This document shows, one piece after another, positions 6,409 through 53,804 of a stretch of DNA of 64,000 nt. Source of the DNA: Margaritifera margaritifera (Eukaryota; Mollusca; Bivalvia; Unionida; Margaritiferidae). The DNA lies in assembly GCA_029931535.1 (NCBI GenBank), contig JAQPZY010001660.1:4613001-4677000 (forward strand). Direction: 5' to 3'. Position 1 is the stretch's first letter. Each line of letters begins with the position of its first letter. Made by a program: the position numbers and the translations under genes. The notes under the pieces were generated by a model. That model saw nothing but the letters and a program-made list of their open reading frames with translations, did not search any database and was not told the origin of the DNA.

Positions 6409-6451
6409 TGTGTAAATAATATGTTAACATTAATATAACGTATTATTATCA

Positions 6452-7607: not shown

Positions 7608-7633
7608 TCGACTCAACTCAACGCGACCAACCG

Positions 7634-7650
7634 ATCTTTCTTTGAAAGAT
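7634..7650. repeat. Dispersed hairpin copy 2, ATCTTTCTTTGAAAGAT
   Basis: Perfect 7-bp stem with a TTT loop, 27 nt after the TGA of the PY-like gene and before the penton gene. Confidence 0.95.
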
Positions 7651-7720
7651 TCATCGATTCAACACCGTTGTGTCGCACCGATTCAATTCGAACAGTTTTA
7701 ATAACGCATTATTATAAATA

Positions 7721-8467: not shown

Positions 8468-8483
8468 ATGATGGGTCGATCCG

Positions 8484-8500
8484 ATCTTTCTTTGAAAGAT
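8484..8500. repeat. Dispersed hairpin copy 3, ATCTTTCTTTGAAAGAT
   Basis: Starts 17 nt after the penton TGA and ends before the start codon chosen for the next gene (8537). Confidence 0.95.
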
Positions 8501-8536
8501 TCAACGAATCAGTTTTTATCATCACACAATTTAATA

Positions 8537-8908: not shown

Positions 8909-8915
8909 AATCCGG

Positions 8916-8932
8916 ATCTTTCAAAGAAATAT
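8916..8932. repeat. Dispersed hairpin copy 4, imperfect
   Basis: ATCTTTCAAAGAAATAT, one mismatch in the stem (GAAATAT for GAAAGAT), 8 nt after the TAA of the small virion gene. Confidence 0.9.
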
Positions 8933-8986
8933 CGACGACCTGATATTGCCGCGTTTTAAGGCATTTTTATCTAACAGAAATTAATA

Positions 8987-10446
8987 ATGTCATCAACGTT
9001 GGATTTTTTTTAACATTGACGAACCGTACACGATCGATAACACAACTGTAGAATATGAGTATCTTGAGTACACTGAAGGTGACAACGACATGAACAAATC
9101 CGGTGAAAGAAAAATTAGTACACGTGATGAGGACATATATTTACTACCTCAAAAAGCATACATTGAAGTGCGTGGAAATTTAATGACAACAGCTGTTCCA
9201 CCAGTGGCACATGCTGCAGGTTCAAACATTTCACTTCAAAATAATGGATTCGGTTTGTTTAAAAATGCGCGATTCCAACTAAATAATCAAACCATCGAAG
9301 ACATTCAAGATTACTTACCTGCTGCAAGCACTATTATGAACATTTTAACATTCAGTGAGGATTATTCGAGATTAACAGCGACGAATATGCTTTGGTTTAA
9401 GGATACTGGCACAGGAGGAGCCGCATCACCAGTAGTTATGCATGGTAATTTAGCAGCACTTACTGCAATAGCAGCTAATTATGCTGATTTAGCAGCTGCC
9501 AGAGTATCAGTTAATACTCTTGCCACAGAGATAACTAATAATATTATCGCCCCGCTAAACGTCGGCGGTAATGTTTTTAACGTAATTAACAATCTGAGAG
9601 CCGCAGCTGCTGGTGAAAGCAATGAAGGACTTGTAAAACGAATGAGATTTACTGATAATGGAGCGCAGATTACAATGTTTTTCCCCCTAAGCGCAATATT
9701 TGGATTTTGTCGTGATGTGAACAAAGTTTTCAGAGGTATAAAACATACTGTTATTTTAAACCGAAATGATATCAATGGTATTGTTTTAATATATGCAGCT
9801 TATGCTAATGATGGACAATTTATTATTAGTCATCTTTCGATGTGGATGCCAAAAGTAATTCCATCGGTGGCAAAACAATTACAACTTGAAAATTTATTAA
9901 CGACATTCACTCGAAGACTTCATTTTGAACAAAACAAGATGTATTCGCAATCAATTCCTGTAACAGCAAATTACACATGGAGAATAACAACTGCCCCGTC
10001 ATATTTTTGTAGTATTTCAAACCAATGCAAGATTTACTGGTAATCAAACTTTCAACAAACATGTATTTGATAATTTACTTGTTTCAAGTATTCGCGTTAG
10101 AATAAATTCTCGGCAATATCCAGAAAAAGAGTTCATTTGCAATTTTGCACCACAGGATAGAAATATTTCACGAGTGTATAAGTCATTGATCGAAGCAGTA
10201 CATAAATATCAGGACACTGATACTGGAAGACAAATCTCAATTGAGGAATTTAGAACATTGTATCCAATATTTCATTTTGATGTTAGTAAGCATAGTGAAA
10301 GACTATCAGGATCAATGGCTGATATTGAAGTATCATGGAGACTTGATGCAGTCCCTGCTGCAGGATATCAAGCATTTGCACTGATTACATCTGATAGGTA
10401 TATTACGCTCGATGTATTAAATGGAAAGATGACGGCAACAGTTTGA
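8987..10446 (+). pseudogene. Major capsid protein (hexon-like, double jelly roll)
   Basis: The gene starts at ATG 8987 behind AATTAATA. Five codons in, a T8 run (9004-9011) throws the frame off by one base; the main part then runs from 9012 to a second homopolymer break, T5 at 10004-10008, after which the C-terminal part continues to TGA at 10444-10446. Together this gives about 485 codons, typical of Polinton major capsid proteins. Recognisable features include LLPQKAYIEVRGNL, an NNGFGLFKNARFQLN segment and a GNQTFNKHVFDN segment. Both breaks are single-base excesses in T runs with no other damage, so assembly error or slippage is as plausible as decay. The product would form the capsid shell. 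Confidence 0.85.
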
Positions 10447-10458
10447 TTTGAATACGCG

Positions 10459-10475
10459 ATCTTTCAAAGAAAGAT
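10459..10475. repeat. Dispersed hairpin copy 5, ATCTTTCAAAGAAAGAT
   Basis: Perfect copy 13 nt after the stop codon of the major capsid gene and before the pX-like gene. Confidence 0.95.
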
Positions 10476-10507
10476 TCAAACAGTTTTGTCTACGACGTTA
10501 AATAAAG

Positions 10508-10855
10508 ATGGTTAAAAAAGGATCATCACAATTAAAATCAATTACATAGATTAAAAAGACCATTGAACGAATCAAACCACTGATGAACAAACTTGAGACG
10601 TTGATAGACGAACTTAATACAATGACAGGTCACCGAAGCGCGCTTACACGCCGGGGCGGTTTTATTGGACCAGCAGCAGCAGTTTTAGTTAAATCGTTGC
10701 TACCAAAAATTTTAGCAGTACTTGGAACACTTGGAATGGCTGCAGCAACTGGTGCAATATCAGGTGCGACAAATAAAGCTGTATCAGGATCTGGGGTACT
10801 AGTACCGTGTTGTAAATCAGGATCAGGTATCAAGTACGCAACGATGCTGCGTTGA
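10508..10855 (+). CDS. pX-like small basic/hydrophobic virion protein 1
   Basis: A 115-codon frame from ATG 10508 (MVKKGSSQLKS...) to TGA 10855, interrupted only by TAG at 10547-10549, 13 codons in. After the TAG come a charged helix with IKPLMNKLETL, a Gly-Gly patch (GGFIGPAAA) and a long Ala/Gly/Leu hydrophobic stretch (about residues 55-95), the layout of adenovirus pX/pVI-like proteins that bind DNA or membranes. The next gene has the same layout (KPLFSKLETLL, GGFLQ), so the two are tandem duplicates. If the TAG is a true stop, translation could start at an internal ATG at 10583. Confidence 0.55.
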
Positions 10856-10870
10856 ATCTTTCAAATCCAA

Positions 10871-10887
10871 ATCTTTCTTTGAAAGAT
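10871..10887. repeat. Dispersed hairpin copy 6, ATCTTTCTTTGAAAGAT
   Basis: Perfect copy 16 nt after the pX-like 1 stop codon. It is preceded by a second half-site, GAATCTTTCAAATCC at 10854-10868. Confidence 0.95.
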
Positions 10888-10923
10888 TCAAAGATCCACT
10901 TTAGTCTAAAATATTAAAATAAT

Positions 10924-11254
10924 ATGCCACCAAAATCATAGACGCTAACGTCAACGACGTTAAAACCTAGAAAGAAGCGAACACCAAAAAAGTTAAACTA
11001 ATGGATCCACAGCGGCGTCAAAAACTTCAGCGAAGTCGAAATCACCTGAAGAAAAGAAAATCAAAGACATTAAAAAAATAATATTAAAACTAAAACCACT
11101 GTTTTCAAAACTGGAGACATTGCTAGCAACGGAGAAAAAAGGAGGATTCCTTCAAATGTTACTTCCAGCACTAGCAGGATTACTAGGAGGCCCGCTGATC
11201 TCGAAACTGTTTGGAAGCGGTCTAACATTACCAGGGACTTATCCTCAGTATTAG
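10924..11254 (+). pseudogene. pX-like small basic/hydrophobic virion protein 2
   Basis: The ATG at 10924 opens a basic N-terminus (MPPKS, then TAG at 10939, then KPRKKRTPKKL). A frameshift near 10995 leads into the frame that carries IKKIILKLKPLFSKLETLL, GGFLQMLLPALAGLLGG and a C-terminal GSGLTLPGT, ending at TAG 11252-11254. If that TAG were read through, TGA follows two codons later. The charged helix plus Gly/Leu hydrophobic segment repeats the layout of the preceding gene. The LTLPGT end is shared with the pX-like gene of Polinton 2 near 44780. Broken in this copy by one stop and one shift. Confidence 0.6.
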
Positions 11255-11259
11255 TTCCA

Positions 11260-11715
11260 TTGAGTAATTTTGATATAAATGATAAATTAAAAAATGTACC
11301 TGGATTCAATGGAGTTTTTTCCAAAGACAGATTTAAAAAAATATCTCTGAGTGGTAGCGATCTTTCTTTGAAAGATTCAACACCTTCAACTCATTGCGTC
11401 ATAAACATAGAAAACTTTGATGATGGATCGGGGACACATTGGGTTGCATTGTATGATAACAATTATTTTGACAGTTATGGTTTTCCTCTGAGTGATCACA
11501 TCAAAAAATATGTTCAATCGTTTCCAAAATTTTCAGATAAACCAATAAAATATGTCAGTAATCAGATTCAGCAAAATGGCACATACGCATGTGGGTATTA
11601 TTGTATAATGTTTATTAAAGAGCTTTCTAAGGGAAAATCTATGCTTGACTACATTTCTCAATTTGATCCGCGAGGGAGTGTTAATAATGATAACTTGGCA
11701 ATTAATTTTGTGTGA
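11260..11715 (+). CDS. Adenain-type cysteine protease
   Basis: The protease would mature capsid proteins. The catalytic His is in GTHWVAL (about residue 60), Asp in FDSYG (about 71), and the nucleophile Cys in ACGYYC (about 110), so the triad is intact. The frame runs to TGA at 11715. No ATG precedes the conserved LSNFDI start, and the open frame begins at TTG; the homologue in Polinton 2 also lacks an ATG there, so expression may depend on the overlapping pX gene. Between SKD and GTHW there are 34 residues, against 18 and 20 in the two other proteases of this window. The extra part coincides with hairpin copy 7. Confidence 0.85.
   Translation: MSNFDINDKLKNVPGFNGVFSKDRFKKISLSGSDLSLKDSTPSTHCVINIENFDDGSGTHWVALYDNNYFDSYGFPLSDHIKKYVQSFPKFSDKPIKYVSNQIQQNGTYACGYYCIMFIKELSKGKSMLDYISQFDPRGSVNNDNLAINFV
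11360..11376. repeat. Dispersed hairpin copy 7, inside protease gene
   Basis: ATCTTTCTTTGAAAGAT in frame inside the protease gene, coding for part of GSDLSLKDST. It is the second copy found in coding sequence. Confidence 0.95.
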
Positions 11716-11731
11716 AAACATATGTATACAT

Positions 11732-11896
11732 ATGACCAGCACGGAAAAAACGTATTGCTTAAAGCGTAAAACTAAAACTGGCAACCTGAACGAATCAACT
11801 GTGAAAACAAAAAACGGCCGAGTGGTGATTAAAAGTATTTGCTCGATTTGTTCGAAAAATAAAAGCAGATTTATAAAACAAAGTAATATAACTTAA
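11732..11896 (+). CDS. Small zinc-ribbon-like protein, 54 aa
   Basis: A short intact frame, ATG to TAA, between protease and PLA2 genes. It has the pattern of small viral zinc-ribbon proteins (DUF5679-like): Cys near the N-terminus, TKNGR in the middle, CSICSK, then a basic RFIKQ end. The first knuckle reads YCLKRK, so its second Cys is replaced by Arg; the homologue in Polinton 2 (near 44195) keeps CLKC. Zinc binding may therefore be impaired in this copy. The role is unknown. Its place between protease and PLA2 is conserved in both elements. Confidence 0.65.
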   Translation: MTSTEKTYCLKRKTKTGNLNESTVKTKNGRVVIKSICSICSKNKSRFIKQSNIT

Positions 11897-11900
11897 GATA

Positions 11901-12542
11901 ATGTATACAGGTACGAGTTGCAAATGTGAAGATAGTAAAATGATTTCCATTGAGGGAAATAAATTAGTTTGTCATTGTAATAAATGTGAGCACCGTCAGA
12001 TACTCGGAGGAGCAATTGATATTCATAATCTGACTGGAAAGTTACCAAAACCTAAAGGAGGCTGGACATTACCAGGTCATAAATATACTGGGCCATGGAA
12101 CCCTCTTGATCAACAACTTGATGAAAATGATAATCCTCTACCAGGACAAGAACCTTACAATGCTGTTGATGCAATTGCAATGCAACATGATATATGTTAT
12201 CGTGACGTGGATGAATCAGGCGAAACAAAACATACATGCGATGAAAAAATGTTGAATCAATTAAACGTGTTAGAGCCGAAAAATCTGCGAGAACGTCTTG
12301 ACAAAAAATTAGTGCAGGGGATCATCGGAGCAAAGTATAAACTTGGCTTGGGTCAATTTGACGATCGTTGGGGGAGGGATTTTTATAATGGAGATATAGA
12401 TTTAGATGTTGATGTGCATGTGTATCCGAATGCAAATCCGGATTTGCAAGCAAATCTAGCAAATGAGCTTCACACACCAATAAAAAAAGTTTCCACGAAG
12501 GCGTGTTGTAGCAAATGCAGTCGACGAAATTTGGTCTGTTGA
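11901..12542 (+). CDS. Parvovirus-type phospholipase A2 with N-terminal zinc motif, running into the integrase
   Basis: The N-terminal 35 residues hold Cys pairs (CKC, CHC-x2-C) likely to bind metal. Residues about 50-125 are a VP1-like phospholipase A2 domain: calcium loop YTGPWNPLD, then the catalytic His-Asp pair in AMQHDICY. Such domains help virions escape endosomes. After KLGLG comes a linker of about 35 residues and then LHTPIKK, which belongs to the pre-core region of Polinton integrases. So the frame runs from PLA2 into the integrase and is lost only at an A7 run (12482-12488). Polinton 2 has the same arrangement. The linker contains the 16-bp palindrome at 12432-12447. Confidence 0.8.
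   Translation: MYTGTSCKCEDSKMISIEGNKLVCHCNKCEHRQILGGAIDIHNLTGKLPKPKGGWTLPGHKYTGPWNPLDQQLDENDNPLPGQEPYNAVDAIAMQHDICYRDVDESGETKHTCDEKMLNQLNVLEPKNLRERLDKKLVQGIIGAKYKLGLGQFDDRWGRDFYNGDIDLDVDVHVYPNANPDLQANLANELHTPIKKVSTKACCSKCSRRNLVC
12432..12447. repeat. Palindrome GCAAATCCGGATTTGC
   Basis: Perfect 16-bp palindrome in the PLA2-integrase linker. Related palindromes (ATTTGCGTGCAAAT at 13669-13682, AATCTGTATACAGATT at 13710-13725) lie in the next gene. Confidence 0.8.
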
Positions 12543-13222
12543 TCTGACAGATATGTCATCGTTGGCTTCTGACAATAATAATACAGATTTTTTACTTAAT
12601 GCTGTAGATGTCCAGAGCAGATTTGCATTTAGTGAACCAATACCAAATAAAATGAGCAGCACCGTTGCATCTGCATTCAATAAGATTATTACAAATAGTG
12701 GACGGCAACCAAACAAAATATGGACCGATCATGGACCCGAGTTTTATAATAGGCAGTTTGACAACTGGTTAAAGCAACATAACATCATTAAGTACACAAC
12801 TGGAAACGAGGGGAAGAGTGTAATAGTTGAACGATTTAATAGAACACTCAAGGAAAAGATTTACATGTTTATGACAGCAAATAACACAAATAGATACATT
12901 GATCATCTTCCGCAAATTATTTCCAGCTACAACAATAAAAACATCGTTCAATTAAAATGACACCAAATGAGGCTGTTAATAATCCTATTCTTGCAAATGA
13001 AAACTTGTATCGAAGGCATAACTTTAATGTTGGTGACCGAGTCAGAATTTCAGTGGTAAAAAAACAATTTGAAAAGGGTTATACGCCAAATTACACTGAA
13101 GAAATATTTGTTGTCAGTGAGATACTGATGACAATCCCCGTCACATACAAATCAAAGACTTAAACAATGAACCGATCATAGGAAGCTTTTACGAGCAAGA
13201 ACTATTGAAAACGCGTATTTAA
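12489..13222 (+). pseudogene. Polinton integrase (retroviral-type DDE), broken
   Basis: The integrase joins element ends to the host chromosome. After the A7 junction the frame reads a basic FPRRRVVANAVDEIW pre-core, then the core with the first Asp in VDLTDM, the second in TDHGPEF and the Glu in ERFNRTLK. The frame changes at an A5 run near 12937-12941 and again near 13150, and ends at TAA 13220-13222. MTPNEAV and a RHNFNVGDRVRIS segment are the post-core region. No complete chromodomain follows, unlike in Polinton 2, so the C-terminus is short. There is no own start codon; expression would require fusion to PLA2 or a non-AUG start. Confidence 0.85.
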
Positions 13223-13231
13223 AACATCTAC

Positions 13232-13911
13232 TTATGAATTTACTTTTGCGTCAACATGTATACGTGTACAGTGATTAATAATGATAGAATTGTATATTTG
13301 CTCATACTGTTGTAATATCTTTTTACATTTTACTGGCTTGCACATCTTAACAAGATCGCTAGCTCGATTAAAATTTATGATACCAATATCTGCAAGCAAT
13401 AAAAATATCTTAGCAAAAGTAAAATCAAATTTAATATTCTTTTGTCTTTTAGGAATACTAATATTCATAAATATTTTTTTACGATCATCAAATGCCTCCT
13501 GCTCGCTTGAAGTTAAATTAAAACGTAATATTTTTTTTAAAGATGATATTTAACATTGTATCGCCGCGTTGGTGCGCTATAATACATGTATATGTGTGAA
13601 TCAACTTTTGAGTGTTCGTCATCATAATCATCTAATGGTGCGTCAACATGTTGGAGTTGTGGATTTGTATTTGCGTGCAAATCTACTTGTGAATCTGAAT
13701 CTGAATCTGAATCTGTATACAGATTTGCATTCATATATGAACGTACTTGTGGATTTACATCTGCATGTAAGTAATTATCAACATGATGAAAATAGTTCAG
13801 ATGGTCTATTTGCGCACATCCGTATGAATGTACTGGTACAGCTGCATGTACTTTTGAATGAACATTTACATCTGAACGATCATTAATCAGCAAGATTAAT
13901 TTTTCCATCAT
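13232..13911 (-). pseudogene. Unknown gene conserved in both related Polintons
   Basis: The N-terminal part (13911-13540) is polar and low in complexity with Asp-Ser, His-Ala-Asn and Gln-Leu repeats partly encoded by a GAATCT hexamer array and by small palindromes. It ends in RRYNVKYHL. A T8 run at 13531-13538 breaks the frame. The C-terminal part (13468-13232) includes IFMNISIPKRQK and FDFTFAKIFLL. Polinton 2 has the same two parts on its opposite strand at 42049-42523 (RYNVKYHL and MNIIIPGRQK), again with a shift. The function is unknown; conserved position and orientation relative to the integrase argue that it is a genuine Polinton gene. Confidence 0.6.
13669..13725. repeat. Palindromes and GAATCT hexamer array
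   Basis: ATTTGCGTGCAAAT (13669-13682), four consecutive GAATCT-type units (about 13690-13714), and the perfect palindrome AATCTGTATACAGATT (13710-13725). They encode the Asp-Ser and His-Ala-Asn low-complexity part of the minus-strand gene. Confidence 0.8.
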
Positions 13912-13939
13912 GGCTATATTTTATATAAATATTTTAATA

Positions 13940-14239
13940 ATGCAAAGATATCACGCTAAGGGGTACATACAAAATATTGAAGATATTGAAAATGCGATAA
14001 GACATTGTTTTGGAGTTCCAGTAAACGTTACTCTTAAAATAAATGAAAATCCTGATGTCAAAGACGTTAGCGGAGAATCTAGTATCAAAAAAAATAATGT
14101 ATTGTTAACGTTAGATGAATTAAAGTTGTTTAAAACAAATGGCACAATTACAACCAGGTGGGATATAGATACAATTATGAATTACTGCCATAACTGCATA
14201 AAGGTTGGTGAATTAATGCGAATACTTGATTCTGGTTAA
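13940..14239 (+). CDS. Unknown small protein, 99 aa, conserved in Polinton 2
   Basis: The ATG at 13940 is chosen because it follows ATATTTTAATA and because the homologue in Polinton 2 (41732-41993) aligns from here. The intact frame ends in TAA. Conserved features in the two copies are a helix with IENAIRHCF / LEETIRKCF, the segment LLTLDELKLF / LLTTEEILLL, and a C-terminal helix with Arg-x-Asp-x-x-x-IMxYxHxCI and ELxRI. The fold looks mostly helical. It shares a short divergent leader with the preceding minus-strand gene. The function is unknown. Confidence 0.7.
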   Translation: MQRYHAKGYIQNIEDIENAIRHCFGVPVNVTLKINENPDVKDVSGESSIKKNNVLLTLDELKLFKTNGTITTRWDIDTIMNYCHNCIKVGELMRILDSG

Positions 14240-14252
14240 ATCTGATTCTGAT

Positions 14253-14846
14253 TTAGATATACTCAAACGAAATTCTGCAATTGTATCGCTTTGAGTAAAC
14301 TGAATTGTACACATGATCAGCAGCAAATTTCACTGATCTTGGATCTATCAAAAAGTACTTTGCAGCGGCTTTGATAGACCTAAACGCGAGTTGTAAATAA
14401 TCTGATTTCACAGGACGGCGAGGTTTATAGCAACCATCTGCATTTTTACCGCGAAGGCAATTTTCTTGTTGTGTAACCAAATCCAGGTTTTCAATTCTGT
14501 TGTCGGTGGTAATACCATTAATGTGATCGATAACTAACCGTCGATCAGTTTTAATAATACCATTAAACACTTCGTAAACAAACCTGTGTGCGTAAATTGA
14601 TTTTCCCTGCTTGCAACTACCAAGCGATCCAGATTGATCACTGACACTAATCTTAAGATAGCCCATATTGGTTAAATTACCAAGAGGGTATTGGTTACGC
14701 CGGTGTCTAATGACCCCTTTATCGTTTGCTTCATAATTGCTGTATACTGGATGAGGTAAAAAATTATTATTATTCATTCTATACTTATCCTTGATTTTAA
14801 ATAAACGTAAAAATATTAAATTTGAATTCAAATTCGAAAATTTCAT
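14253..14846 (-). CDS. HNH homing-type endonuclease, 197 aa
   Basis: An intact frame. The nuclease core (about residues 85-135) reads AHRFVYEVFNG, then VIDHINGITTDNRIENLDLVT and QEN, the HNH fold of NUMOD4/HNH_3 homing endonucleases. The N-terminal YSNYEANDKGVIRH is the usual small domain before it. The C-terminal part (IKAAAKYFLIDPRSVKF) resembles a NUMOD1-type helix-turn-helix for DNA binding. The first ATG at 14846 gives a 23-residue extension; an internal ATG near 14777 may be the true start. It is divergent from PolB across 26 bp. A homologue sits at the same place in Polinton 2, so it is a resident gene there. Confidence 0.85.
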   Translation of the reverse strand: MKFSNLNSNLIFLRLFKIKDKYRMNNNNFLPHPVYSNYEANDKGVIRHRRNQYPLGNLTNMGYLKISVSDQSGSLGSCKQGKSIYAHRFVYEVFNGIIKTDRRLVIDHINGITTDNRIENLDLVTQQENCLRGKNADGCYKPRRPVKSDYLQLAFRSIKAAAKYFLIDPRSVKFAADHVYNSVYSKRYNCRISFEYI

Positions 14847-14872
14847 TTAAATATTAAAATTTTAATAATATA
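14847..14872. promoter_or_regulatory. Divergent leader between HNH and PolB genes
   Basis: A 26-bp all-AT gap (TTTAATAATATA before the PolB ATG) between two divergent start codons. It must hold both 5' ends. AT-rich leaders of the form TTATTATAAATA or TTTAATAATA precede most ATGs of this element. Confidence 0.5.
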
Positions 14873-17800
14873 ATGAGTCAAGTCCATCCGTTGCGTGTAT
14901 TATCACATCAAGTCATTTTTCGAATGCGTGAAATCGAAACAGCATTTGCTGGCACGGAGAAATCTTTTATTTTTGATAATCAGGCCGCATTAAAAGCATC
15001 TACGGAAACATCTATAGAAAAAACAGGAAAATTTGGATTAATGTTCAATGACCTTTACTCAATGCTGTACCCAACAATCCGAGGACAGTTGATATCACCC
15101 TACGGATTAAAAATTATTGTTCAGTATAAGGTAATATTTGTGATAGGCGAACTTGTAGTACTGGAGGAAGAATCAGGATCATTTAAATCAACTAAAACAA
15201 CAATAATATTACAAGGGACGAACATTGAAGAAAAAATCATGGATGCGCTTGAAGACCTTCATCAAAAAATTGAATCACATGAGTCAGCTGGATCCGGTTG
15301 GAAATGTAAAAGCACTGATGCGGTGTTACTTCACACATCAAGATATAATCCATTACGTGGATCAAGTTTTGTTGAGCTGCCAGGCCATTTTAAAAACTCA
15401 AAGTGTATTATAAATGTAAAAAACGATGATGATAAGTGTTTTCAATGGGCGGTACTTTCAAAAATATATAAAGCCAATAAAAACCCAAATCGAACATCAA
15501 ATTATGCAAAATATGTTAACGAACTAAATTTTAAAGGAATTGAATTTCCGGTAAAAATCAACCAGGTGGAAAAATTTGCAAGACAAAATAATCTCGCCGT
15601 GAACGTTTTTGGCTTATATTATTGCACAAGAAAAAAAGAATATGATGTACACCCAATAATTATTAGTGGAAAACCGTTGGATAGTCATGAGGCGTTGTGC
15701 GATGTAATTAATCTGCTTTTTTATAAAGGGCATTATTGCTGGATTAAACACTTTAATGGGATTCTTTTTAGCCAAAATAATAAACACAAAGGAAGACTTT
15801 TTTGTTGTTATCGTTGCTTAAAAAGATGTAGCTCACAAAAAATATTAGATACTCATTTGGAATACTGTGTAAGCATTCAAAAAATAACCATGCCAAATGA
15901 AGAAAATTCGAAATTGAGTTTTAAAAACCACCAGAATGAAAATAAAATTCCATTTGTGATATATGCTGATTTTGAGGCATTGTTGGAACCTGTGGAATAC
16001 GCAATAAACAATCCTAATATATCATCAACAATAAAAATACATAATCATATTCCATGCAGTGTTGCTTACAAAGTTGTTTGCGAATATGATAAAAAATTGT
16101 CAAAACATATTCAAATATATCGCGGTGCAAATCCAGCTGAGTGGTTACTAAGTAATCTATTAATTGAGGCATCATCTATTAAAAAAGAAATTAAACTCAA
16201 TGGCGTATATGATAAGAAAATGTTTATTCCAGTAGTTTTCCATAATTTTCAAGGGTATGATGCACATATTATTGTTGAGGCTTTTGGTAATGAAAAATTT
16301 AGTGTAAAAAGAATAAAATGCATTCCAAACAGCACAGAAAAATATATGTCAGTGACTTATAAACAGCTTAGATTCATTGATAGTTTTCAATTTATGGCAA
16401 CATCGCTTGATGACCTTGTGAAAGGTTACTCCGTATTTTCTAACTTACAAAAATATTTTGGGGCAAATGCTAGTTTACTAAAACGAAAAGGAGTTTATCC
16501 ATACGAGCACATGGACGGATTTTCACGATTTGATGAAATATCGTTGCCTGATCGATCACAGTTTTAGTCAAAGGTGCGTATAGGAGGAATAGACTCAGAT
16601 GAATATGAATATGCGCAAACAATATGGTCAAAATTTAAATGCGAAAATATTGGCGATTACCATAATCTGTACTTGATAACAGATGTGCTTCTTCTAGCTG
16701 ATGTGTTTGAACAGTTTCGTGATATGTGCATTAAACATTATGGGTTAGATGCGCTTTATTATCTTTCATCTCCAGGTCTTGCTTGGGATGCAGCATTAAA
16801 ATTTAATGATAAAACATCAGATTTGTTCACGGAAAAAGGTATTCGAGGCGGGATATCAGTGATAACAAAGAAATATGCAAAAGCTAACAACAAATATCTG
16901 ACAGATTATGACCCTGACAAAGGAATCAAGTTATATAATTTATTTAGATACAAATAATCTTTAGCGATGGGCAATGAGCCAACTTTTACCAGTTGGAAAT
17001 TATAAATGGATAACAGCGGACCAGTACTGTAAGGAAGCTGAAAAATACAATATCGAAAACGGATATTTCATTGAGGTTGATCTTGAATATCCATCTGCGT
17101 TGCATGATCTGCATAACGACTACCCATTCTGTGCTGAATCGATTTTAATCAATAATTCAGGCTTTCTCAAAATCAAATTGCATTTAATGAAAAAATATGG
17201 TTATGGAAGCGTTTCAGAAAAATTAGTTCCAAACCTTATGACGAAAAAGCGATATGTTGTGCACCATGTGGCATTAAAGCAAGCAGTTGATGCAGGTTTA
17301 ATAATAACTAAGATTCATTGTGTACTAAAGTTTGATCAGTCGTGCTGGTTAAAAGAATACATTGATTTTAACACGCGTCAGAGAACTATCGCAAAAACAG
17401 AATCTGATAAAAACCTTTTCAAGCTAATTAATAATAGTGTATTCGGTAAAACTATGGAAAATAAGAGAAAACGAGAAGATATTGAAATAGTGAACAATGC
17501 TGCTCGACGGGATAAAGTGATATCAATGGATACTTTCATGTCAAGAAAAATATTTAATGAAAATTTGATGGCGGTTCATAAGCGTAAAACAAATCTGATA
17601 CTAGATAAACCAATTGCAAATGGGACAGCTGTGCTAGATGTTTCAAAAACATTAATGTACGATTTTTACTATAATGTTATCAAAAAGTTGTATCCTGGCG
17701 AAAAATCTCAATTGTTATTTACAGATACTGATTCACTCTGTATTCATGTATTTACTGATGATGTTTACCAAGACATGTATGATAATCGCGAGTGGTTTGA

Positions 17801-18191
17801 TCTATCAGATTATCCTGCCAGCAGTGGATTCCAATGTAATGATAATAAAAAAGTAATAGGCAAATTCAAAGACGAAACAAACTTTGTGCCAATTGTCGAA
17901 TTTGTAGGCTTGAGAAGTAAATTATACAGTATTAAACTCGCAGATGGATCAGTAAAAAAACGTGCTAAAGGAATTCAGAGGGCAGTTGTAAGCAAAGTGA
18001 TAAAATTCGACGACTATAAAAATGCACTAAATGGAAAGCGCGATCATGTATCAATGACAACAATACGATCAGACAAGCATAAAATTATAACTGCGTTGAT
18101 AAATAAATCAGGATTATGTAACAATGATGACAAACGATGGTGCAACGATGGAATAAACACGAATGCGATTGGACATTATAAAAACTTTTAA
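14873..18191 (+). pseudogene. Protein-primed family B DNA polymerase
   Basis: The polymerase would replicate the element from a protein primer. Exonuclease motifs: YADFEAL (about residue 363), NFQGYDAH (about 457) and YLITDVLLLAD (about 600). Polymerase motif B is NSVFGKTMEN and motif C FTDTDSL. Two TAG codons interrupt it: 16565-16567, and 16962-16964 inside motif A. At both positions the homologue in Polinton 2 has Tyr. A frameshift near 16938 separates the second and third open stretches. The start is the ATG after TTTAATAATATA, and the end is TAA at 18191. The length (about 1105 codons) is normal. All other motifs are kept, so damage is limited to these three points. Confidence 0.93.
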
Positions 18192-18217
18192 TTGCATATC
18201 TAAGGCAAAATTTTATT

Positions 18218-18712
18218 ATGAAAAATCAATTAGAGAATAAAATATATAGTATAATGACGACCGAAAAAATCACATTAGTAAAATCATGTGGTGTTAAAAA
18301 TATCATGATCGGAAAAAAACGATTCGAAATAACAATAAAATCAGAAGTGACTTCTAAAAACTATCCAGAATCAGGTGGATATTTTAAAAATAAACTATCT
18401 CTTTATAATGATGGTGAAAGTGAATACTTCAAAGCGCTAGGAGATCTTGAATCAGAATTAATGGAAATGGAGGAAAATTATGTGTCAGCAATAAAACAAG
18501 AACAATATACAACTATAACCATTGACAAAGCCACAACTGTGTTTGAAAATAATAAACGTGTTCCACCAAAAGATGTTGAAAATTTGTTTAAATATGAAGG
18601 TATTAAAGTAAGTGGAAAGCTTAAGTTCTGCTTATTTAAGCCTCCTAACAAGGATGAATTTTATTTGATAGCAGAAGTTGTCACATTGAAAATTGACGAC
18701 GATGATGAGTAA
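18218..18712 (+). CDS. Possible ssDNA-binding protein downstream of PolB, 164 aa
   Basis: An intact ATG-to-TAA frame 26 bp after PolB. The N-terminal half is rich in Lys and beta-prone; a later segment GIKVSGKLKFCLFKPP and FYLIAEVVTLKI suggests antiparallel strands, and the protein ends in Asp-Asp-Asp-Asp-Glu. An acidic tail after a beta barrel is typical of phage-type single-stranded DNA-binding proteins, and the position next to PolB fits replication. This is inference from composition; no family motif is recognised. It is the last gene before the right inverted repeat. Confidence 0.6.
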   Translation: MKNQLENKIYSIMTTEKITLVKSCGVKNIMIGKKRFEITIKSEVTSKNYPESGGYFKNKLSLYNDGESEYFKALGDLESELMEMEENYVSAIKQEQYTTITIDKATTVFENNKRVPPKDVENLFKYEGIKVSGKLKFCLFKPPNKDEFYLIAEVVTLKIDDDDE

Positions 18713-18761
18713 TTATTTTAGTAACCTATTTAAATGATCATAAAACAGTTAATTTTAGTAA

Positions 18762-18945
18762 TCATCATGGAGGCGCCAAATTTGTTATAAAACATCTTTT
18801 GCCCTTACTTTTTTTACCTTTGGGGTGGAAAATAATGCCTAATAGAAGCTTTTATTAACTTAACGGGGGTCTCTAACAAAGGCTAAAAAGGTCGGCGACC
18901 GGCGAAAAACAAAATGTGCCAGAAACCGCCTTTTACCTTACTACT
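18762..18945 (-). repeat. Right terminal inverted repeat, Polinton 1
   Basis: Mirror copy of 554-737, 183 of 184 bases identical. Such similarity means the two ends have had little time to diverge since the last replication or insertion. Confidence 0.97.
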
Positions 18946-45815: not shown

Positions 45816-45962
45816 TATCATTATCATAGTAATGTGATTTTGATCGCTAGATCACGTCTCGTTGTCAGCATAAAAATTCGCGTCTCGTAATGATCCGGAT
45901 TTTCTAATGCTGACAACTCGACGTGATCTAGCAATCAAGATCGCGTTACTGTGATAATACTA
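45816..45962. repeat. 56-bp inverted repeat, 35-bp spacer
   Basis: 45816-45871 (centre CTAGATCACGTC, GTTGTCAGCAT) pairs with 45907-45962 (ATGCTGACAAC, GACGTGATCTAG), with about nine mismatches. It directly precedes the Polinton 3 fragment and could be a small foldback transposon or a remnant of its end. Confidence 0.7.
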
Positions 45963-46039
45963 TGTATACATCCGTGGAATCTTCAAGTATCGTATCGGGC
46001 ATGCTCTTCAACCCGAACTACGCCGTGTACGTCAAAGCA

Positions 46040-46205
46040 TCATGGGCTATCACAAAGATGACAGCTACAGCTCTTTGGAACGAAGAACACGTAAAGTGGG
46101 TAAACGTCGAGTGGAAGAAGTGAAAGTGCGTTTAAAAGGATATCCTCCTAGTTTTGATTCTTGGATTGCGGCTTCCCAAGTCATCGACTATAAAAAGAAG
46201 AAGTA
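46040..46205 (+). pseudogene. Polinton 3 integrase, C-terminal chromodomain
   Basis: The frame ending at TAA 46204-46206 encodes VKVRLKGYPPSFDSWI and an ASQVIDYKKKK end, a typical integrase chromodomain C-terminus. Upstream GHALQPELRRV and a KRRVEEVK segment also fit. The core is missing. Confidence 0.7.
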
Positions 46206-47340: not shown

Positions 47341-48630
47341 ATGATGCACCGAGATTCTTGCGAATGTACCAAGTCAGAACTGGATCTGTTTGCAATGCCC
47401 CCGACCATGATGACAATGCAAGAATCCAAATTGGTCGAATTTCATCCTGTATCGTCTTTTAAAATCAAAGGACAAACCGAAGATTACATCGATCTGAATA
47501 GCAGTCACTTGTATCTGAAACTTAAAGTGCTCAAAACGGACAACAGCAATCCTGGGACCGACGACAGAGTAGCTCCCGTCAATAATTTCATGCATTCCTT
47601 GTTCAGCGAAGTGGATTTGTACTTGAATCACAAACTTGTCAGCAGCAGCATGGATACTAACCCTTACCGTGCTTACTTGGAAAATATCTTGAAGTACGAA
47701 AAAGAAGCCAAGAACACCCATCTGGATGCTTCTGTGGCATCGAAACCTGACACCTTGGATACATTCAACGACACAGCGTTGACATAAGATGACAATCCTC
47801 ACAATATGGGATTTAGCAACCGTCGAAAGAAAATCAGACAAGGGCGCACTTTAGAACTGATGGATCGTTTGCATTTTTACATGTGGTTGCAAGACAAACA
47901 TTTGTTAAACGGAGTGGATGTATGCCTGAGACTGAATCGCAGCAGTACTGTCTTCCATTTGATGGCTAATGCGAACGAGTACAAAACTATCATCGAAGAA
48001 GCCAGACTTTACGTGCGCCGTGTAGAAGTGTTACCTAAAGTAGCCAACGACATCAGTCAAACTTTGAACAGAACCATCGCCAAGTATCCTGTGCGACGAG
48101 TGGAAGTGAAAACGTTTACCATTGCCTCTGGACACCGATCCAAAGTCGAAGATCACGTCTTCCAAGGATAGCTGCCCAAACGTTTGCTGATTGGTATCGT
48201 CAGTAATGTAGCCCTCAACGGAGCTATCGATCAAAATCATTTCAACTTTCAGCACTTCAATATTTCCAAGATAGAAGTCACTCGAGATGGCCAGACGTTG
48301 GGTACCAGACCTTTTGAACCTAACTTTGCCCAGAAAATTTACTTGAGATCTTACTTGACTCTGTTTGAAGCCACAGGACAGTTAAGTACCAACAGCAGCC
48401 ACTGTATTTCGTACGTGGATTATGCAGGAGGATATGCTTTGTGGGAATTTGATTTCACTCGCGACCAAGGCAGCGACGAAGAACATTTCCACCCTATAAA
48501 ATCAGGCCAACTTCGTGTGGAACTTCAGTTTGCCACAGCTCTAGCCAACACCATGAACGTCATCTTGTATGCAGAATTTGACAATACTCTGGAAATCAAC
48601 AGTTTGAGCGAAGTGATTCTAGACTATTAA
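47341..48630 (+). pseudogene. Polinton 3 major capsid protein
   Basis: One continuous frame of about 430 codons, broken only by TAA at 47785-47787 and TAG at 48169-48171. N-terminus: CTKSELDLFAMPPT, EFHPVSSFKI and EDYIDLNSSHLYLKL; middle: NNFMHSLFSEVDLYLN and NPYRAYLENIL; C-terminus: PFEPNFAQKIYLRSY and MNVILYAEFDNTLEIN. These match the double jelly-roll capsid protein family known from animal genomes as F54H12.2-like. The sequence between the stops is well conserved. Confidence 0.85.
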
Positions 48631-48632: not shown

Positions 48633-49067
48633 ATGCAACACGAAGAACCTATGGAGATACAAGATGAGGGATTTTGCGATGACGATGTTTTTGATCCAGA
48701 ACCAAAAGAAGAAAAAGAGACTGTCATGATGTCAAGATGGCCAGAACAAGAACAACATTTAGTCTGCTGTTTTGCTACGGATTTGGCTGAAAGAATTACA
48801 GGTCTGACCAGAGAACATAGTCATGGATGTCAAATCGAGCATCCGAGTCAGAAACAACACGACAAATGTATGATGATGAGTGCAGAAGACAAATTGGAAG
48901 AGTATCTAGATGAGGCATGGTCTCAGATCTAAGAAGAAAAGATGTTGAGAAAGTGCTATAAAGACTTGCAGGATCGTTCCTCACCTCCATTGACTTCTCT
49001 GGAGACCCGACGCATCGTAGCTCTCTTGCAACAGAGTACAGAGACTACCGTTCATCGACTTACTTGA
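48633..49067 (+). pseudogene. Polinton 3 acidic conserved protein
   Basis: The ATG at 48633 follows the capsid stop by two bases. The acidic N-terminus is followed by CCFATDLAERITGLTRE and GCQIEHPSQKQHDKC, a Cys/His motif regularly found beside F54H12.2-type capsid genes. TAA at 48930 interrupts the frame, which then stays open to TGA at 49065-49067. The function is unknown; metal binding is plausible. Confidence 0.65.
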
Positions 49068-49127
49068 CAGACATATTCAAGCATAAAGTCAAGTGTGAAT
49101 TGATGACTTATCATTACCTGTGAAAAA

Positions 49128-49685
49128 ATGGATACCTGGGAACTTCATTACATGTTGACTCGCAGTTCGTACACCGCTTCTTGGAATCCTGTGGTGTGTG
49201 CTAAAGATGAACTTCCACATCGCAAACCTAAAGACGTTCAAGCTTATGTCATCAATACCGATCGACCAGGAACCCATTAGGTGGCAGTGAACTTTCCCAA
49301 CGATCACAGTGTGGAGTATATTGATTCTTATGGATTACCTCCTTTGGAAGACGACATCATTGACTTTATGAGAAGAAATGCTACCTCCACTCGATTCAGT
49401 AATGTGAGATTACAAGGATCAGATTCCATGGTGTGTGGACAATATTGTGTACATTTTCTTCATCAACGCAGTCTTGGATATCCCTTAGAACATTTAGTGA
49501 CTTATTTTGATAAAGAGTACGCTAGAAACGATGTTAAAGTTGAAAGATGGTTTTGTGAACATCTTGGTTATCTGTTGTCTTTATCTCAGAAAAGTAGTGT
49601 TCATCGAGGGCAGAATGACTTTGAACAGTGGAAGTCGAGTTTGACTTCACAACGTTGTCAACCCTATAAATACGTTCACGTTTAA
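49128..49685 (+). pseudogene. Polinton 3 adenain-type protease
   Basis: One frame from ATG 49128. CAKDELP, then GTH followed by TAG (49278-49280) in place of the usual Trp, YIDSYGLPP (Asp) and VCGQYCVHFL (catalytic Cys). The triad residues are all present. The TAG can be explained by a G-to-A change of TGG. The extended C-terminus ends at 49685. Confidence 0.8.
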
Positions 49686-49878
49686 ATATGTTTGTTTGTA
49701 TTTTGTGTCAGAGAAGCTTCTTCTTGTTGATTAAAAAAATCTTGATTTTTGAAAAAAAATGGTGTTGTGTTGTTTTATGAATTAATAAAATTAAATGTAT
49801 ATGCTCTTTGACTTCTCTATATCGATCTGAGGTAACTACTCTTTCACATTTCTCTCTATCGATCTGAGACATATTTTC

Positions 49879-49930
49879 CATCGCGTCCGCGCTTCCAGCA
49901 TATAAAGCGGTGCGTTTGCCAGTCGGGTCA
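49879..49930 (+). promoter_or_regulatory. Promoter block 1 (TATA box) of the tandem gene family
   Basis: CGCGTCCGCGCTTCCAGCA followed by TATAAAGCGG (TATAAAG at 49901-49907). Nearly the same block occurs before genes B (TATATATAGCGG near 52247) and C (TTCACGTCCGTACTTCCAGC, TATAAAG at 53072). A LINE now separates it from gene A. Confidence 0.7.
49920..49930. repeat. Target-site duplication CAGTCGGGTCA (left)
   Basis: Exact 11-bp match to 51414-51424, flanking the LINE fragment. Confidence 0.85.
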
Positions 49931-51413
49931 GTAGCTTTGGAAGATTTTTGCCAGGTATAAAAGAAGCAGGAATAAATTGCCCACACTGTCCCACACCTGA
50001 AACATTATGCCACATTTTTAACGAATGCCCCAAATATACCCAAGAAAGGGAAAAATTCCAGGAAAATCAGAAGAAACTAAAGACCCAAGATAGCTACCCG
50101 GATTTCCTTAAAACAGGAAATAATACCATAAGTTCGGTGTGCTCAAACATACTGGGATTCATCACCGACATTGGGAAGAGAGGGAAGATATAATGCCTGG
50201 TTAAGAAAGATAACAACAACAACAAAACACATTTACTATGGCAAACCCGAACAGTCTAAGGCGGGAGAGGAGGGCCTCGCACAAGGGGGAAAGGGATTGG
50301 TATATCAGGATCGCTAGGACGCTAGGGTGCCGTGGTACGCCGCAAAGGCGAGCCAATCACCGCCATCTTAAGCGGGAGAGACTCCTCTCCCATGATAGGA
50401 CTGAGAGGCAAGCCAAAAAAAAAGAAAAAAATTATACAAATACAAATTGGAATATATGAATAAAATAAACTTGGGATAGTTGCCTATAAAGATCCAGACA
50501 TAGAATTCAAAATTTTAAAAAAGCGATACTTTTTGACCCCCCCCCCCCCATTTACTACATCATCTTAACCCTCAAATTAATCCTACGTTTTCCCAATCCC
50601 GAACACAACACTAAATTCTTAACAAAGTCACTAACAACAAAGCATGTTACCTCACATTAACATAGAAATAATCTATTTCTACTGGTCTATATTAAACTCT
50701 TTAGGTAGCACCGGTGTACCATGTTTTGTATAACTTAACTTGAACCTCAATTGAAATTAACTTAGCATAAGGTGGTCGTAAGCCCAGACCATCAGACATA
50801 GCCGCTCAAAGTGGCATTGATTTGAAATTCAGAATTATTAGAGGTCCCGCTTAACTGACCACCAACATGATTAAGAGTATAAGGTGGTTCAAAGCCCAGA
50901 CCAGCAGGGTCCCACCGCACAATTCGGTAACTGATACCTCAAAAATACTCACCCAAATATACGATGAAGCACAGACGCCAAGAGAAAAACTATGGACATA
51001 TACACAAATTAGTCAATATAAGGTGGTAACAGACCATCAGGCCCAGCCACACAAGGTGGCAACGATTAAACACAACAACAAAACCCCAATAATAGTAGGT
51101 GCCTGTGCTTGCAAACCTATAATCGTACTCCCTGAACTAAACCGGGCTCAGAGTGCATCCATTTCCTTCTTTCTTCTCTGCTGGTATAGTAGTAACCTTA
51201 ATTAACTGACGTAGGCAATCTGTCATTAGTACAGAGTATCTCATCAAAAATTAACATTAGATAAGAAGCAAGACGACAACATTCATCTTTTGGCAAATAA
51301 AGCAAATCTAAATTCAATCTTGGACCACTTGGAGCCATCTGCGCACACTGGGGATATATAGACGTAAATGGCCTTATGGCCGAACACGTCTCTAATTCAA
51401 CTAATCAATCAAT
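49931..51413 (+). mobile_element. 5'-truncated LINE, 1,483 bp
   Basis: Bounded by an exact 11-bp duplication. Near the 5' end (49950-50190) it encodes CPHCPTPETLCHIFNECPKY, the zinc motif at the C-terminal end of many LINE reverse transcriptases. The rest is 3' untranslated sequence with a TGGCCTTATGGCC hairpin and a 3' (AATC)n tail (51398-51413). It lies between a TATA box and the start codon of gene A. Confidence 0.8.
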
Positions 51414-51424
51414 CAGTCGGGTCA
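51414..51424. repeat. Target-site duplication CAGTCGGGTCA (right)
   Basis: Second copy of the 11-bp duplication, directly followed by the leader of gene A. Confidence 0.85.
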
Positions 51425-51443: not shown

Positions 51444-51814
51444 ATGGCTGCGAAGATTAGTTTACTGAATGAATGATAGTGAACATGCAGCGGGTTAGAC
51501 ATAACCTGATTCAGAAGAACCCAGAGAAGAAGACGATGATCTTCCTGCAAATGGCCCAAGATCTGATGGAAGAAGTTTTGCGAGAAGAGATCATCAGGGA
51601 CAGAGCGGAATGGGAGGAGAAACAAAGACTGCAGCAGCAGCAAAGACAACAACAACAGCTACAACAATAACTCTTACAGCAGATGCAACAACAAGAAGGA
51701 GAAGTGTCCTGTAAGATGGACTGTGAGGAGTTTGCCTTCTCCTTCATAAGGAAGCGTCCTTGTCCTGCGGCGGTGAGACCTGTGGTGAAACGTGGCCGTC
51801 CTGAAAGAAGTTAA
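51444..51814 (+). pseudogene. Tandem family gene A (coiled-coil, Gln-rich, basic tail)
   Basis: ATG at 51444 (MAAKISLLNE) stops after ten codons; the shifted frame continues with NMQRVRHNLIQKNPEKKTMIF, a coiled-coil-like EEVLREEIIRDRAEWEEKQR and a Gln-rich run. TAA at 51668-51670 interrupts, then EGEVSCKMDCEEF and a basic tail with RKRPCP and VKRGRPERS (AT-hook/NLS-like) to TAA at 51812-51814. Homologous to gene B by the DP/NPxKK, EEVxEDR and Gln-rich segments. I do not recognise the family. A nuclear, DNA-associated protein is a plausible guess. Its promoter is separated by the LINE. Confidence 0.55.
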
Positions 51815-51842: not shown

Positions 51843-51860
51843 GGTCCTTTTCGAGGACAC
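51843..51860 (+). terminator. Histone-type 3' stem-loop, gene A (degenerate)
   Basis: ACGGTCCTTTTCGAGGACAC, 28 nt after the gene A stop. A 5-bp stem GTCCT/AGGAC with a TTTCG loop. Differs from the canonical histone stem-loop by an extra loop base. A purine-rich TAGAAAAGA lies 10 nt downstream. Confidence 0.6.
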
Positions 51861-51929
51861 CCGTATCTGTAGAAAAGATTACTCTATGATTGACTACAAA
51901 AATGTGTGTATGTTGAGTGTATGTTTGTC

Positions 51930-52100
51930 TTTGTTTGTTTTTTTCGTCAACGATAAAAATTCCCTTTCCCTTGTGTGTTTGTATGGAGTGTGTTTGGTGT
52001 ATGTTTGTATAGAGTGTGTCTATAAACACTCCCTTACCCTTCCTATGTTAAAAACGTGTTTTCTTTTAGGTCCGCGCACTTGGTATGTTTTATGTGAATG
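51930..52100. repeat. 3' flank repeat of the tandem unit (copy 1)
   Basis: TTCCCTTGTGTGTTTGTATGGAG..., GAGTGTGTCTATAAACACTC and TTCTTTTAGGTCCGCGCACT recur at 52880-53010 after gene B. This shows that genes A, B and C are units of a tandem array of roughly 0.85-0.95 kb. Confidence 0.8.
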
Positions 52101-52221
52101 GCGTCATACTCAGAAACTGATGACGTCAGACGCGGTAGCCGGGTTCAAGTGAGTCCTGTTTTAGGTCTGCGCGAGTTATGTTTTATGCATGTGTGGATTG
52201 TATTTTCTGGTGTGAGGGATG

Positions 52222-52262
52222 TTTTCCTTCACGTCCGTGTTTTAAGTATATATAGCGGTGCA
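52222..52262 (+). promoter_or_regulatory. Promoter block 2 (TATA) before gene B
   Basis: TTTTCCTTCACGTCCGTGTT then TATATATAGCGGTGCATTCA, 20-30 nt before the gene B ATG. A CRE-like palindrome TGACGTCA lies upstream at 52121-52128. Confidence 0.65.
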
Positions 52263-52282
52263 TTCATCAACAAAGAAGAAGA

Positions 52283-52693
52283 ATGAGTAGTAATAGGGCA
52301 GAAAAACTTAGCCAAGTCTTAGTTCACCTAGAGCATGTTCGTCGCCTCCTGGATGACCTCGAGGAGCTAGATCCAGACAGGAAAATATTCCTGAGGAAGA
52401 TAATAAACTTAAAATTTTCCAATCAACTGATCGTGGTATCTTTGAAGGAAGAAGTGATAGAGGACAGAAAAAATTATGAGAAAGAAAAGAAGTTAAAGAT
52501 ACGTCCCAACTGTGCTGTCAAACCAATGGTGAGGACGCAGCAGCAGCGACAGCAAACACAGCAGCACCAGTAACAACAGCAGCGACAGCAACCACAGCAG
52601 ACAATATTCACGGTCCCTGCAACAGAGAATTGGGACGGTGAAGCCACTCAACCCCCGTCCTCTTTTCCCATCTCCATCAATCCCTGGGGTTGA
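52283..52693 (+). pseudogene. Tandem family gene B
   Basis: ATG at 52283, 96 codons open, then TAA (52571-52573, in a CAA/CAG-rich run), after which the same frame continues to TGA at 52691-52693. The N-terminal part is a helical LSQVLVHLEHVRRLLDDLEE, then DPDRKIFLRK, and a coiled-coil-like KEEVIEDRKNYEKEKKLK; a Gln-rich run and a Pro-rich tail (QPPSSFPISINPWG) follow. It lacks the AT-hook tail of gene A. The family is unknown. Confidence 0.55.
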
Positions 52694-52779
52694 GATCAAT
52701 GGAGTGGGAGATGTGCTGCCTGTGGGGCCAGACCGGGGAGGTGTCCACACCTCTAGGTGAACAAAAACAAAAACCAAAC

Positions 52780-52795
52780 GGAACTTTTCAGAGCC
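52780..52795 (+). terminator. Histone-type 3' stem-loop, gene B (mutated stem)
   Basis: GGAACTTTTCAGAGCC, preceded by AAAC and followed by ACAAC. 14 of 16 bases equal the canonical GGCTCTTTTCAGAGCC; the two changes break two stem pairs. Confidence 0.65.
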
Positions 52796-53040
52796 ACAAC
52801 AATTACCAAGAACAGAAATCTGATTTGCCTAAACAATTTGTCTTTGTATGTTGGGTTTGTGTTTGTGTCTGTCTTTTTAAAAAACAAAAAATCCCGTTCC
52901 CTTGTGTGCTTGTATGGAGTTTGTTTGTGTAGAGTGTGTCTATAAACACTCCCTTGCCCTTCCTATCTTAAAAATACTTTCCTTTAAGTCCGCACACTTG
53001 GTGTGTTTTGTGTGTAAGTGTTTTTTTTTTATTTTTTGGG

Positions 53041-53090
53041 GATGTTTTCCTTCACGTCCGTACTTCCAGCATATAAAGCGACGCATTCAC
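53041..53090 (+). promoter_or_regulatory. Promoter block 3 (TATA) before gene C
   Basis: TTCACGTCCGTACTTCCAGC then TATAAAG at 53072-53078, 52 nt before the gene C ATG. Confidence 0.7.
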
Positions 53091-53129
53091 CATTTGCGTC
53101 ATTCGTCGTCAACTGAAAAGAAGACAAGA

Positions 53130-53733
53130 ATGACAACAGTGGAGAATTTGCAGGAAGCCTGGGCTTGGATGCTGGGAGTGGAGTATCTGCTTGAAAAGAT
53201 ACAGTGTTATTGGCGTTATCCAGTCAGCCCTTACAAGAGCCAAAGGTCTTGTCCATGACGTCATGAAGGAGGAAGCGATGAAGATGAAGGTGTCCTCGGT
53301 AGTTGCACCCTGTCAAGTGGGAAAGTTAAAGAAAGCCTTGGGTTTGATGAAAGAGGTGGAATACTTCCTAGATAGGGTGCATGAAGACTTTTGGTTTTAT
53401 CAACCCCTCAGTAGTGTGAGGAGGGAAGAGGCTGCCCTGCTCACAGCCAAGGGTATTGTTAGAGAAGTCATAGAGAAGGAGGTGTTGTAGATCAAGAAGG
53501 TTTGGACTCAGGAAAGAATGGTGAAGAAGCAGGAGAGGAGAGAAAGGGACTTCCACCGCCTGAATGCTCATTGGATCAAGGTCCAGGAGAAATTCAGGAG
53601 ATTGGGTCAACCGGACTGGATCCCTGATCCACCAAAGAAGAAGACGAACATTCTAGGCTTCCTGAAGAAATGGTGGTCAGGGAGGTCAAAGTTAAAACAA
53701 ACGGCCCTTTTCAGGGCCAACCACATCTTTTAG
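53130..53733 (+). pseudogene. Tandem family gene C (internal duplication)
   Basis: ATG 53130 opens MTTVENLQEAWAWMLGVEYL; a shift near 53205 leads to the main frame. Two related helical units are visible, EAWAWMLGVEYLLEKI with AKGLVHDVMKEEA, and KALGLMKEVEYFLDRV with AKGIVREVIEKEV, so the protein contains an internal duplication. TAG at 53488-53490 interrupts, then a basic, Trp-containing tail (PPKKKTNILGFLKKWW). The frame runs through the stem-loop to 53733, so the original stop was probably lost. The family is unknown; related to A and B by position, flanks and helical layout. Confidence 0.5.
53703..53718 (+). terminator. Histone-type 3' stem-loop, gene C (perfect)
   Basis: GGCCCTTTTCAGGGCC: a perfect 6-bp stem with the TTTC loop, flanked by ACAAAC upstream and AACCACA downstream. 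It fits the metazoan histone mRNA consensus GGYYYTTTTCARRRCC. A purine-rich AGAAAAGAAAC (53732-53742), like a histone downstream element, follows. Confidence 0.85.
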
Positions 53734-53804
53734 AAAAGAAACAATAAAAAACATTGCCAATGGTGTTTCTATGTTTGTGTGTTTGTTGGGTGTATGTGTC
53801 TATT

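Follow-up and report, generated by a model that had tools for sequence, protein, structure and literature searches.

A lineage of Maverick/Polinton-type (adintovirus-like) viruses, many copies of which are integrated in the genome of Margaritifera margaritifera, very probably expresses five of its genes, here named A to E, through the host pathway for replication-dependent histone mRNAs. All five end in a histone-type signal: the stem-loop GGYYCTTTTMAGRRCC, which lies 14-56 nt past the stop, then ACCCA, resembling a cleavage site, and then a U7-type purine element with the core GAAAAGA at the spacing found in the host. The viral signal consists of a 6-bp stem and a 4-nt loop of the UUUM type, with an A before it and ACCCA after it. 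The best reading of these signals is that the virus borrowed the host histone expression programme, that is SLBP/U7 3' ends and histone-type promoters, for some of its genes. To our knowledge histone 3' ends in animals are almost private to replication-dependent histone mRNAs, and among full-text, open-licence PMC papers none was found to report a histone stem-loop on a non-histone gene of a virus.

The signals were met in the window, the 64-kb stretch of DNA that was analysed, where genes A, B and C are what is left of one end of such a virus (capsid, X, protease, A, B, C) in a decayed copy. All of its features lie on the forward strand. The order begins with a fragment of gene E (45962-46078, residues 1-39 of 77; tblastn 74% identity, E 1e-15), the major capsid protein gene in pieces in several frames (47341-48627; tblastn 75%, residues 1-440), gene X in two pieces found by tblastn between capsid and protease (48633-49120), and an adenain-type protease gene (49128-49682; tblastn 79%, residues 1-190), whose homologue in L011 matches Peptidase_C5 with E 0.004, below the curated cut-off. 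These are followed by a histone-type promoter element of A (49874-49894) consisting of TTTTCCATCGCGTCCGCGCTT and then CATATAAA, recognised by GTCCGCGC at 49885 and its context. Some 1.5 kb of other DNA (49906-51420), probably a later insertion, lies between this element and the A frame. Gene A (51476-51811; tblastn 67%) is interrupted by an in-frame TAA, gene B (52283-52753, by its frames, with the tail at 52625-52753 by tblastn) is likewise decayed, and gene C (53130-53676; tblastn E 7e-41, and frames) has a frameshift near 53224 and a stop at 53488-53490. A second, different Polinton occupies positions 554-18945 of the window, has 184-bp terminal inverted repeats that are 99.5% alike, and encodes PolB, ATPase-like, DJR capsid-like and phospholipase A2-like genes; the window-wide pattern scan gave no stem-loop match in it.

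The sequence-only reading had placed histone-type hairpins behind A, B and C, and all three are where it put them: a degenerate one at 51843-51858, a 14/16 match at 52780-52795 and a perfect 16/16 match at 53703-53718. The purine-rich downstream elements that it saw for A and C are equally real, with GAAAAGA cores at 51872-51878, 13 nt past the A stem-loop, and at 53733-53739, 14 nt past the C stem; TTGCC, a third 3' module common to the sites, follows at 53754-53758. When the window was scanned for ACGGYYCTTTTMAGRRCCA with up to three mismatches there were exactly three matches, all on the forward strand and behind A, B and C, while 100 shuffles gave a mean of 0.15 and never reached three, which disposes of chance-level hairpins. 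The covariance check that had been proposed was borne out for C only. By the Rfam Histone3 model C alone is above the gathering score, and barely so (34.1 bits against 34, E 4.5e-6); B is below it (16.9 bits, E 0.73 on 4 kb) and A is absent from the model's matches in the window, so that the window by itself amounts to one good and two decayed sites. It would thus leave doubt, and it is the relatives elsewhere in the genome that settle the identity of the hairpins. The description of A, B and C as a tandem family holds in that they adjoin and have alike regulatory ends; their paralogy is unproven, as profile comparison was weak for A and C (probability 10%) and gave nothing for B against the others. 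Within C it indicated an internal duplication (93%). A, B and C are thus not clearly one family, judged by these profiles.

A search with the Histone3 model over the window's own genome (2.45 Gb), in which 75 of 508,685 candidates were scored, returned 75 hits over the cut-off, the best with 45.8 bits. The best of these scored hits (about 45 bits) stand behind homologues of A to C, many of them with open frames, and the first eight loci contained homologues of the window's gene C or of its viral neighbours and not histones. Pieces of 9.5 kb were fetched around 20 of the 75 hits and their genes assigned by tblastn. Every piece contains one or more of A to E, and 19 of the 20 (the exception is L027) also have the polymerase, capsid, X or protease gene. 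Two arrangements recur: capsid, X, protease, A, B and C in one, and in the other the polymerase, a CCHC-knuckle gene (Zn), D and E back to back, and then C. The protein of this Zn gene (L015:6368-6877 and relatives) has three CCHC zinc knuckles (Pfam zf-CCHC 4e-21), unexpected beside a Polinton polymerase. A separate genome search with the E protein, in which 150 of 5010 candidates were scored, gave 141 of the 150 without an internal stop; the family is large in the genome and its frames are mostly open.

A Maverick/Polinton is expected to combine, within about 15-20 kb, genes for PolB, integrase, ATPase, protease and capsid. The element on C72 has, in its middle piece (L053), three Pfam matches over their cut-offs, namely an integrase core (2e-13), a chromodomain and an A32-type ATPase, and on these, together with matches of the polymerase to PolB and of the protease to Peptidase_C5 that are below the Pfam cut-offs, the elements are assigned to the Maverick/Polinton type. 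The C72 element measures about 20 kb between its outer stem-loops, as read in three pieces that cover all but one stretch of it, and it unites PolB, integrase, ATPase, protease and capsid, the last assigned by its relatives only. Gene C lies near both ends of the element, and the ends show inverted similarity over 185 nt at 97%, the terminal stem-loop included. Some 60-190 nt past the C stem-loop in L009, L013, L014 and L015, inspection by eye also showed an almost perfect inverted repeat (CCGTATGTAGTGACGAA...), each arm about 40 nt long. The capsid has no Pfam match and no relative in IMG/VR, but it resembles bivalve proteins named F54H12.2-like, which we take to be the Polinton capsid; among 120 of 1602 listed relatives, those named for a host are mostly bivalve (Mercenaria, Ostrea, Saccostrea, Crassostrea). 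The elements share with Mavericks/Polintons and adintoviruses a retroviral-type integrase with chromodomain, an A32-type ATPase, PolB, an adenain-type protease and a capsid, and differ from them in five accessory genes, A to E, with histone-type ends. Such ends also set them apart from the other Polinton of the window and from the analysed pieces of distant relatives (capsid 41-44%), for which four contigs of other origin gave no Histone3 match, although the relevant gene region may lie outside these contigs. In IMG/VR two stem-loop patterns found no match.

These results bear on the suggestion that the units are decayed histone repeats or a host gene family of non-viral nature, to which their histone-type 5' and 3' parts and their many copies might point. 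That reading is hardly credible. None of A to E has a Pfam hit over the cut-off, to histones or otherwise, the genes recur in order next to polymerase, capsid, X or protease (19 of 20 pieces) and next to integrase and ATPase (one element), and the host's own histones lie elsewhere in 8-kb arrays. The sequence-only reading had held the coded proteins not to be histones and had considered an origin from a virus or mobile element, with more units to be sought in the genome; in each respect it is sustained, by the absent histone matches, by the gene order and the integrase and ATPase, and by the size of the family, respectively.

How regularly the viral genes carry the 3' signal was counted from tblastn rows reaching the C-terminus, which leaves out, for example, D in L019 and L024 and E in L028. 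In all 50 such rows of A to E (49 gene copies) a stem-loop with two mismatches or fewer stands 15-56 nt downstream of the stop. As the loci had been chosen by their stem-loop, the 21 copies among the 75 hits were removed from the count, and the stem-loop was present in all 28 copies that were not search hits (A 6, B 5, C 3, D 10, E 4). A second test took 20 E copies, about every seventh on the list of 150, two of which were also among the 75 hits. Chosen in this way by list position, 20 of 20 had the stem-loop (18 without mismatch) and 19 the GAAAAGA core; in the corresponding control two of 1000 mononucleotide shuffles reached two mismatches and none did better. The remaining viral genes gave a different picture. 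Within 500 nt of capsid, X and protease the stem-loop was found in none of 20 rows, and behind the polymerase in none of nine, of which four were followed by less than 500 nt of sequence; the middle piece L053 was also without it. The pattern did occur in 6 of 11 Zn rows, which were not counted because they match the reverse strand of the stem-loop of the convergent gene D.

It could be argued that the hairpin acts as DNA, in replication, packaging or end recognition, and not in the mRNA, since gene C lies near both element ends and the inverted end similarity of the C72 element takes in the terminal stem-loop. Against this, the hairpin is also present in A, B, D and E, where it follows the stop closely on the sense strand and is accompanied by a strand-specific ACCCA and purine element as in histone pre-mRNA, which makes a role confined to DNA highly improbable.

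The viral sites were compared with the histone genes of the host. Host H3, H4 and H2B lie in 8-kb tandem arrays and end in GGCCCTTTT[ACT]AGGGCC, then A[CT][AG]CA and a purine element. Of 53 viral sites, 48 have GAAAAGA beginning 13 nt past the stem and one has it at 14 nt, the other four having one-base variants; in the host, the core GA[AG]AAGA or GGAAAGA is found at 13 nt in 10 of 10 sites, which as array copies are non-independent. TTGCC follows 26-39 nt past the stem in 50 of the 53 viral sites and at 34 nt in 5 of the 10 host sites, with TGCC in three, TACC in one and nothing comparable in one. Host H2B (L037) and viral A (L012) share the identical sequence TCTCTAGAAAAGAT. After the stem the viral sites mostly have ACCCA and the host histones (L037-L052) ACACA, ATACA or ATGCA. 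The three contigs with H4 arrays had none of the 75 Histone3 hits, which represent a small fraction of the candidates. With replication-dependent histone genes (Rfam RF00032, SLBP, U7 snRNP) the viral genes thus have in common the stem-loop, an ACCCA-like cleavage context, the purine element at 13 nt and a short 3' UTR, and A to C also the promoter element of host H2B; they differ in that their proteins are not histones and in that they are part of a viral element. For the host U7 RNA itself, the Rfam model had no match in the genome, and control genomes were likewise without one. The pattern TCTTTTCT..AATTTGTCTAG had 4 matches in the host against 2 in the reversed control, and in no case was there a strong 3' hairpin. 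A further pattern, TCTTTTCTAG..TTTSTCTWG, had 7 matches against 5 in the control, and none was accepted, the best 3' hairpin (L079) having -11.1 kcal/mol.

The likeness to the host extends to the 5' side of some of the genes. The 21-mer TTTTCCWTCACGTCCGCGCTT is present without mismatch upstream in all three host H2B promoters, and with at most one mismatch in 25 of 26 starts of A, B and C outside the window, the exception being C in L021. Within the window the elements of B (52222-52242, then TATATA) and C (53045-53065, then CATATAAA) have two mismatches each. Among D, E, capsid, X, protease, polymerase and Zn, 27 starts had 7-12 mismatches, and 200 shuffles per start gave a minimum of 4 or more. 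It should be said that the motif was defined after both viral and host sets had been viewed, and that the host array copies are non-independent. Host H4 has a related GGTCCGCGC in three of four promoters (5-6 mismatches to the 21-mer), and the 21-mer is absent from four upstream parts of host H3 of 152-193 nt each. Just past it TATAAA is found in 5/5 starts of A, 6/7 of C and 1/5 of B, the other B starts having TATATTAAA. D and E share a region which by eye has CCAAT-type motifs. As D and E (and C of L021) are without the H2B-type element, the promoter part of the argument applies to three of the five genes. The 21-mer presumably resembles the binding site of HINFP (HiNF-P). In mammals, a passage in PMC5706932 describes HiNF-P as recruiting NPAT to H4 promoters.

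Poly(A) hexamers were sought behind the same genes. A[AT]TAAA stands 52-59 nt past the stop in 5 of 7 protease rows; within 400 nt a hexamer was found in 1/6 capsid, 1/7 X, 0/9 polymerase (four rows shortened) and 1/11 Zn rows. With such low counts, use of poly(A) signals among the genes without stem-loop is supported for the protease alone, and capsid, X and protease, which lie close together, may have one common transcript. Among the stem-loop genes, a hexamer is absent from the first 400 nt in 14 of 15 C rows and in every row of D (10) and E (11), and A and B have hexamers further downstream (6/6 rows, the first at 156-235 nt, and 5/8 rows, the first at 187-276 nt, respectively). The hexamers behind A and B would agree with a hairpin that serves SLBP-based mRNA stability or translation only, the 3' ends being made by downstream polyadenylation. 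The rows of C, D and E speak against this, as does the positional conservation of the U7-type element, and we consider it unlikely.

Selection on the coding regions was estimated between copies. For B to E, dN/dS is 0.07-0.42 in pairs with dS above 0.4, with the 3' signals intact, and synonymous sites have reached saturation in 9 of 15 E pairs. Pairs of A (dS at most 0.32) gave 0.19-0.47 and in one case 1.02, one close C pair gave 0.99, and the protease pairs gave 0.6-3.8, values of little weight at dS below 0.04. In the stem itself 94% of the cells pair, and changes on both sides are seen at two of the six pairs. Five cells are changed on both sides against 2.2 in shuffles (reached by 15 of 500), and two stem pairs have such changes against 1.5 (reached by 269 of 500); covariation is modest, and a small excess is what a nearly invariant motif would be expected to give.

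This matters for the possibility that the hairpins are passive relics, left when a viral ancestor captured parts of a host histone gene by recombination and now idle. The promoter element and one of the downstream elements match host H2B letter by letter, as capture would leave them. In spite of this, all five gene types have the signals, in 28 of 28 and 20 of 20 copies and at fixed spacing, and several copies of C and E have diverged strongly at synonymous sites (dS 0.8 to over 1). Idle relics are therefore very unlikely in our judgement.

The viral proteins offer few relatives. Gene C had none when 5.8 billion proteins were narrowed to 4413 candidates. The PDB gave no relative better than E 0.1, and phages gave no match; X has one database relative (P0121). 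In two copies, gene X (window 48633-49120; L012:1412-1969; L011:2254-2820) gave a BTG-like match with E 1.5e-4 and 21.9 bits against a cut-off of 23; the domain is absent in P0121, and one X copy had no PDB match. BTG is an anti-proliferative, deadenylase-adapter domain, and its likeness in X, being borderline, can be taken as a hint only. The D proteins (L009:3818-4453) end in GLGRGKGLRQLKLIM or nearly so, which resembles the tail of H4 (SGRGKGGKGLG); this may be chance.

If the virus did borrow the histone programme, host SLBP would bind the viral stem-loop, U7 snRNP would pair with the GAAAAGA downstream element, and CPSF73 would cut after ACCCA to leave an mRNA end without poly(A). The mRNAs of A to E are then probably poly(A)-less and expressed in S phase, to which histone-type 3' ends together with histone-type promoters would couple the viral genes and in which a nucleus-replicating virus could exploit host DNA synthesis. 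A bolder version, possible but distinctly tentative, is of a viral regulon disguised as histone genes from promoter to tip, which would use the histone locus body (HINFP/NPAT-type activation, SLBP/U7) to make poly(A)-less mRNAs in S phase that are possibly exempt from deadenylation. The virus would in that case turn deadenylation on host mRNAs, for which the borderline BTG-like domain of X might be a candidate. A histone connection in animal DNA viruses has a parallel in the adomaviruses, described in a passage of PMC11071296 as having histone-like proteins (Histoid genes); as far as that passage goes, it is the protein that is histone-like there, whereas here only the regulatory signals are.

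Borrowing of the host programme by this lineage, if true, would mean that viruses can plug into the histone 3'-end pathway, and do so in a large family with five non-histone genes. The many copies would supply natural sequence variants for studying recognition by SLBP and U7, and would allow a direct test of whether foreign genes can borrow S-phase coupling.
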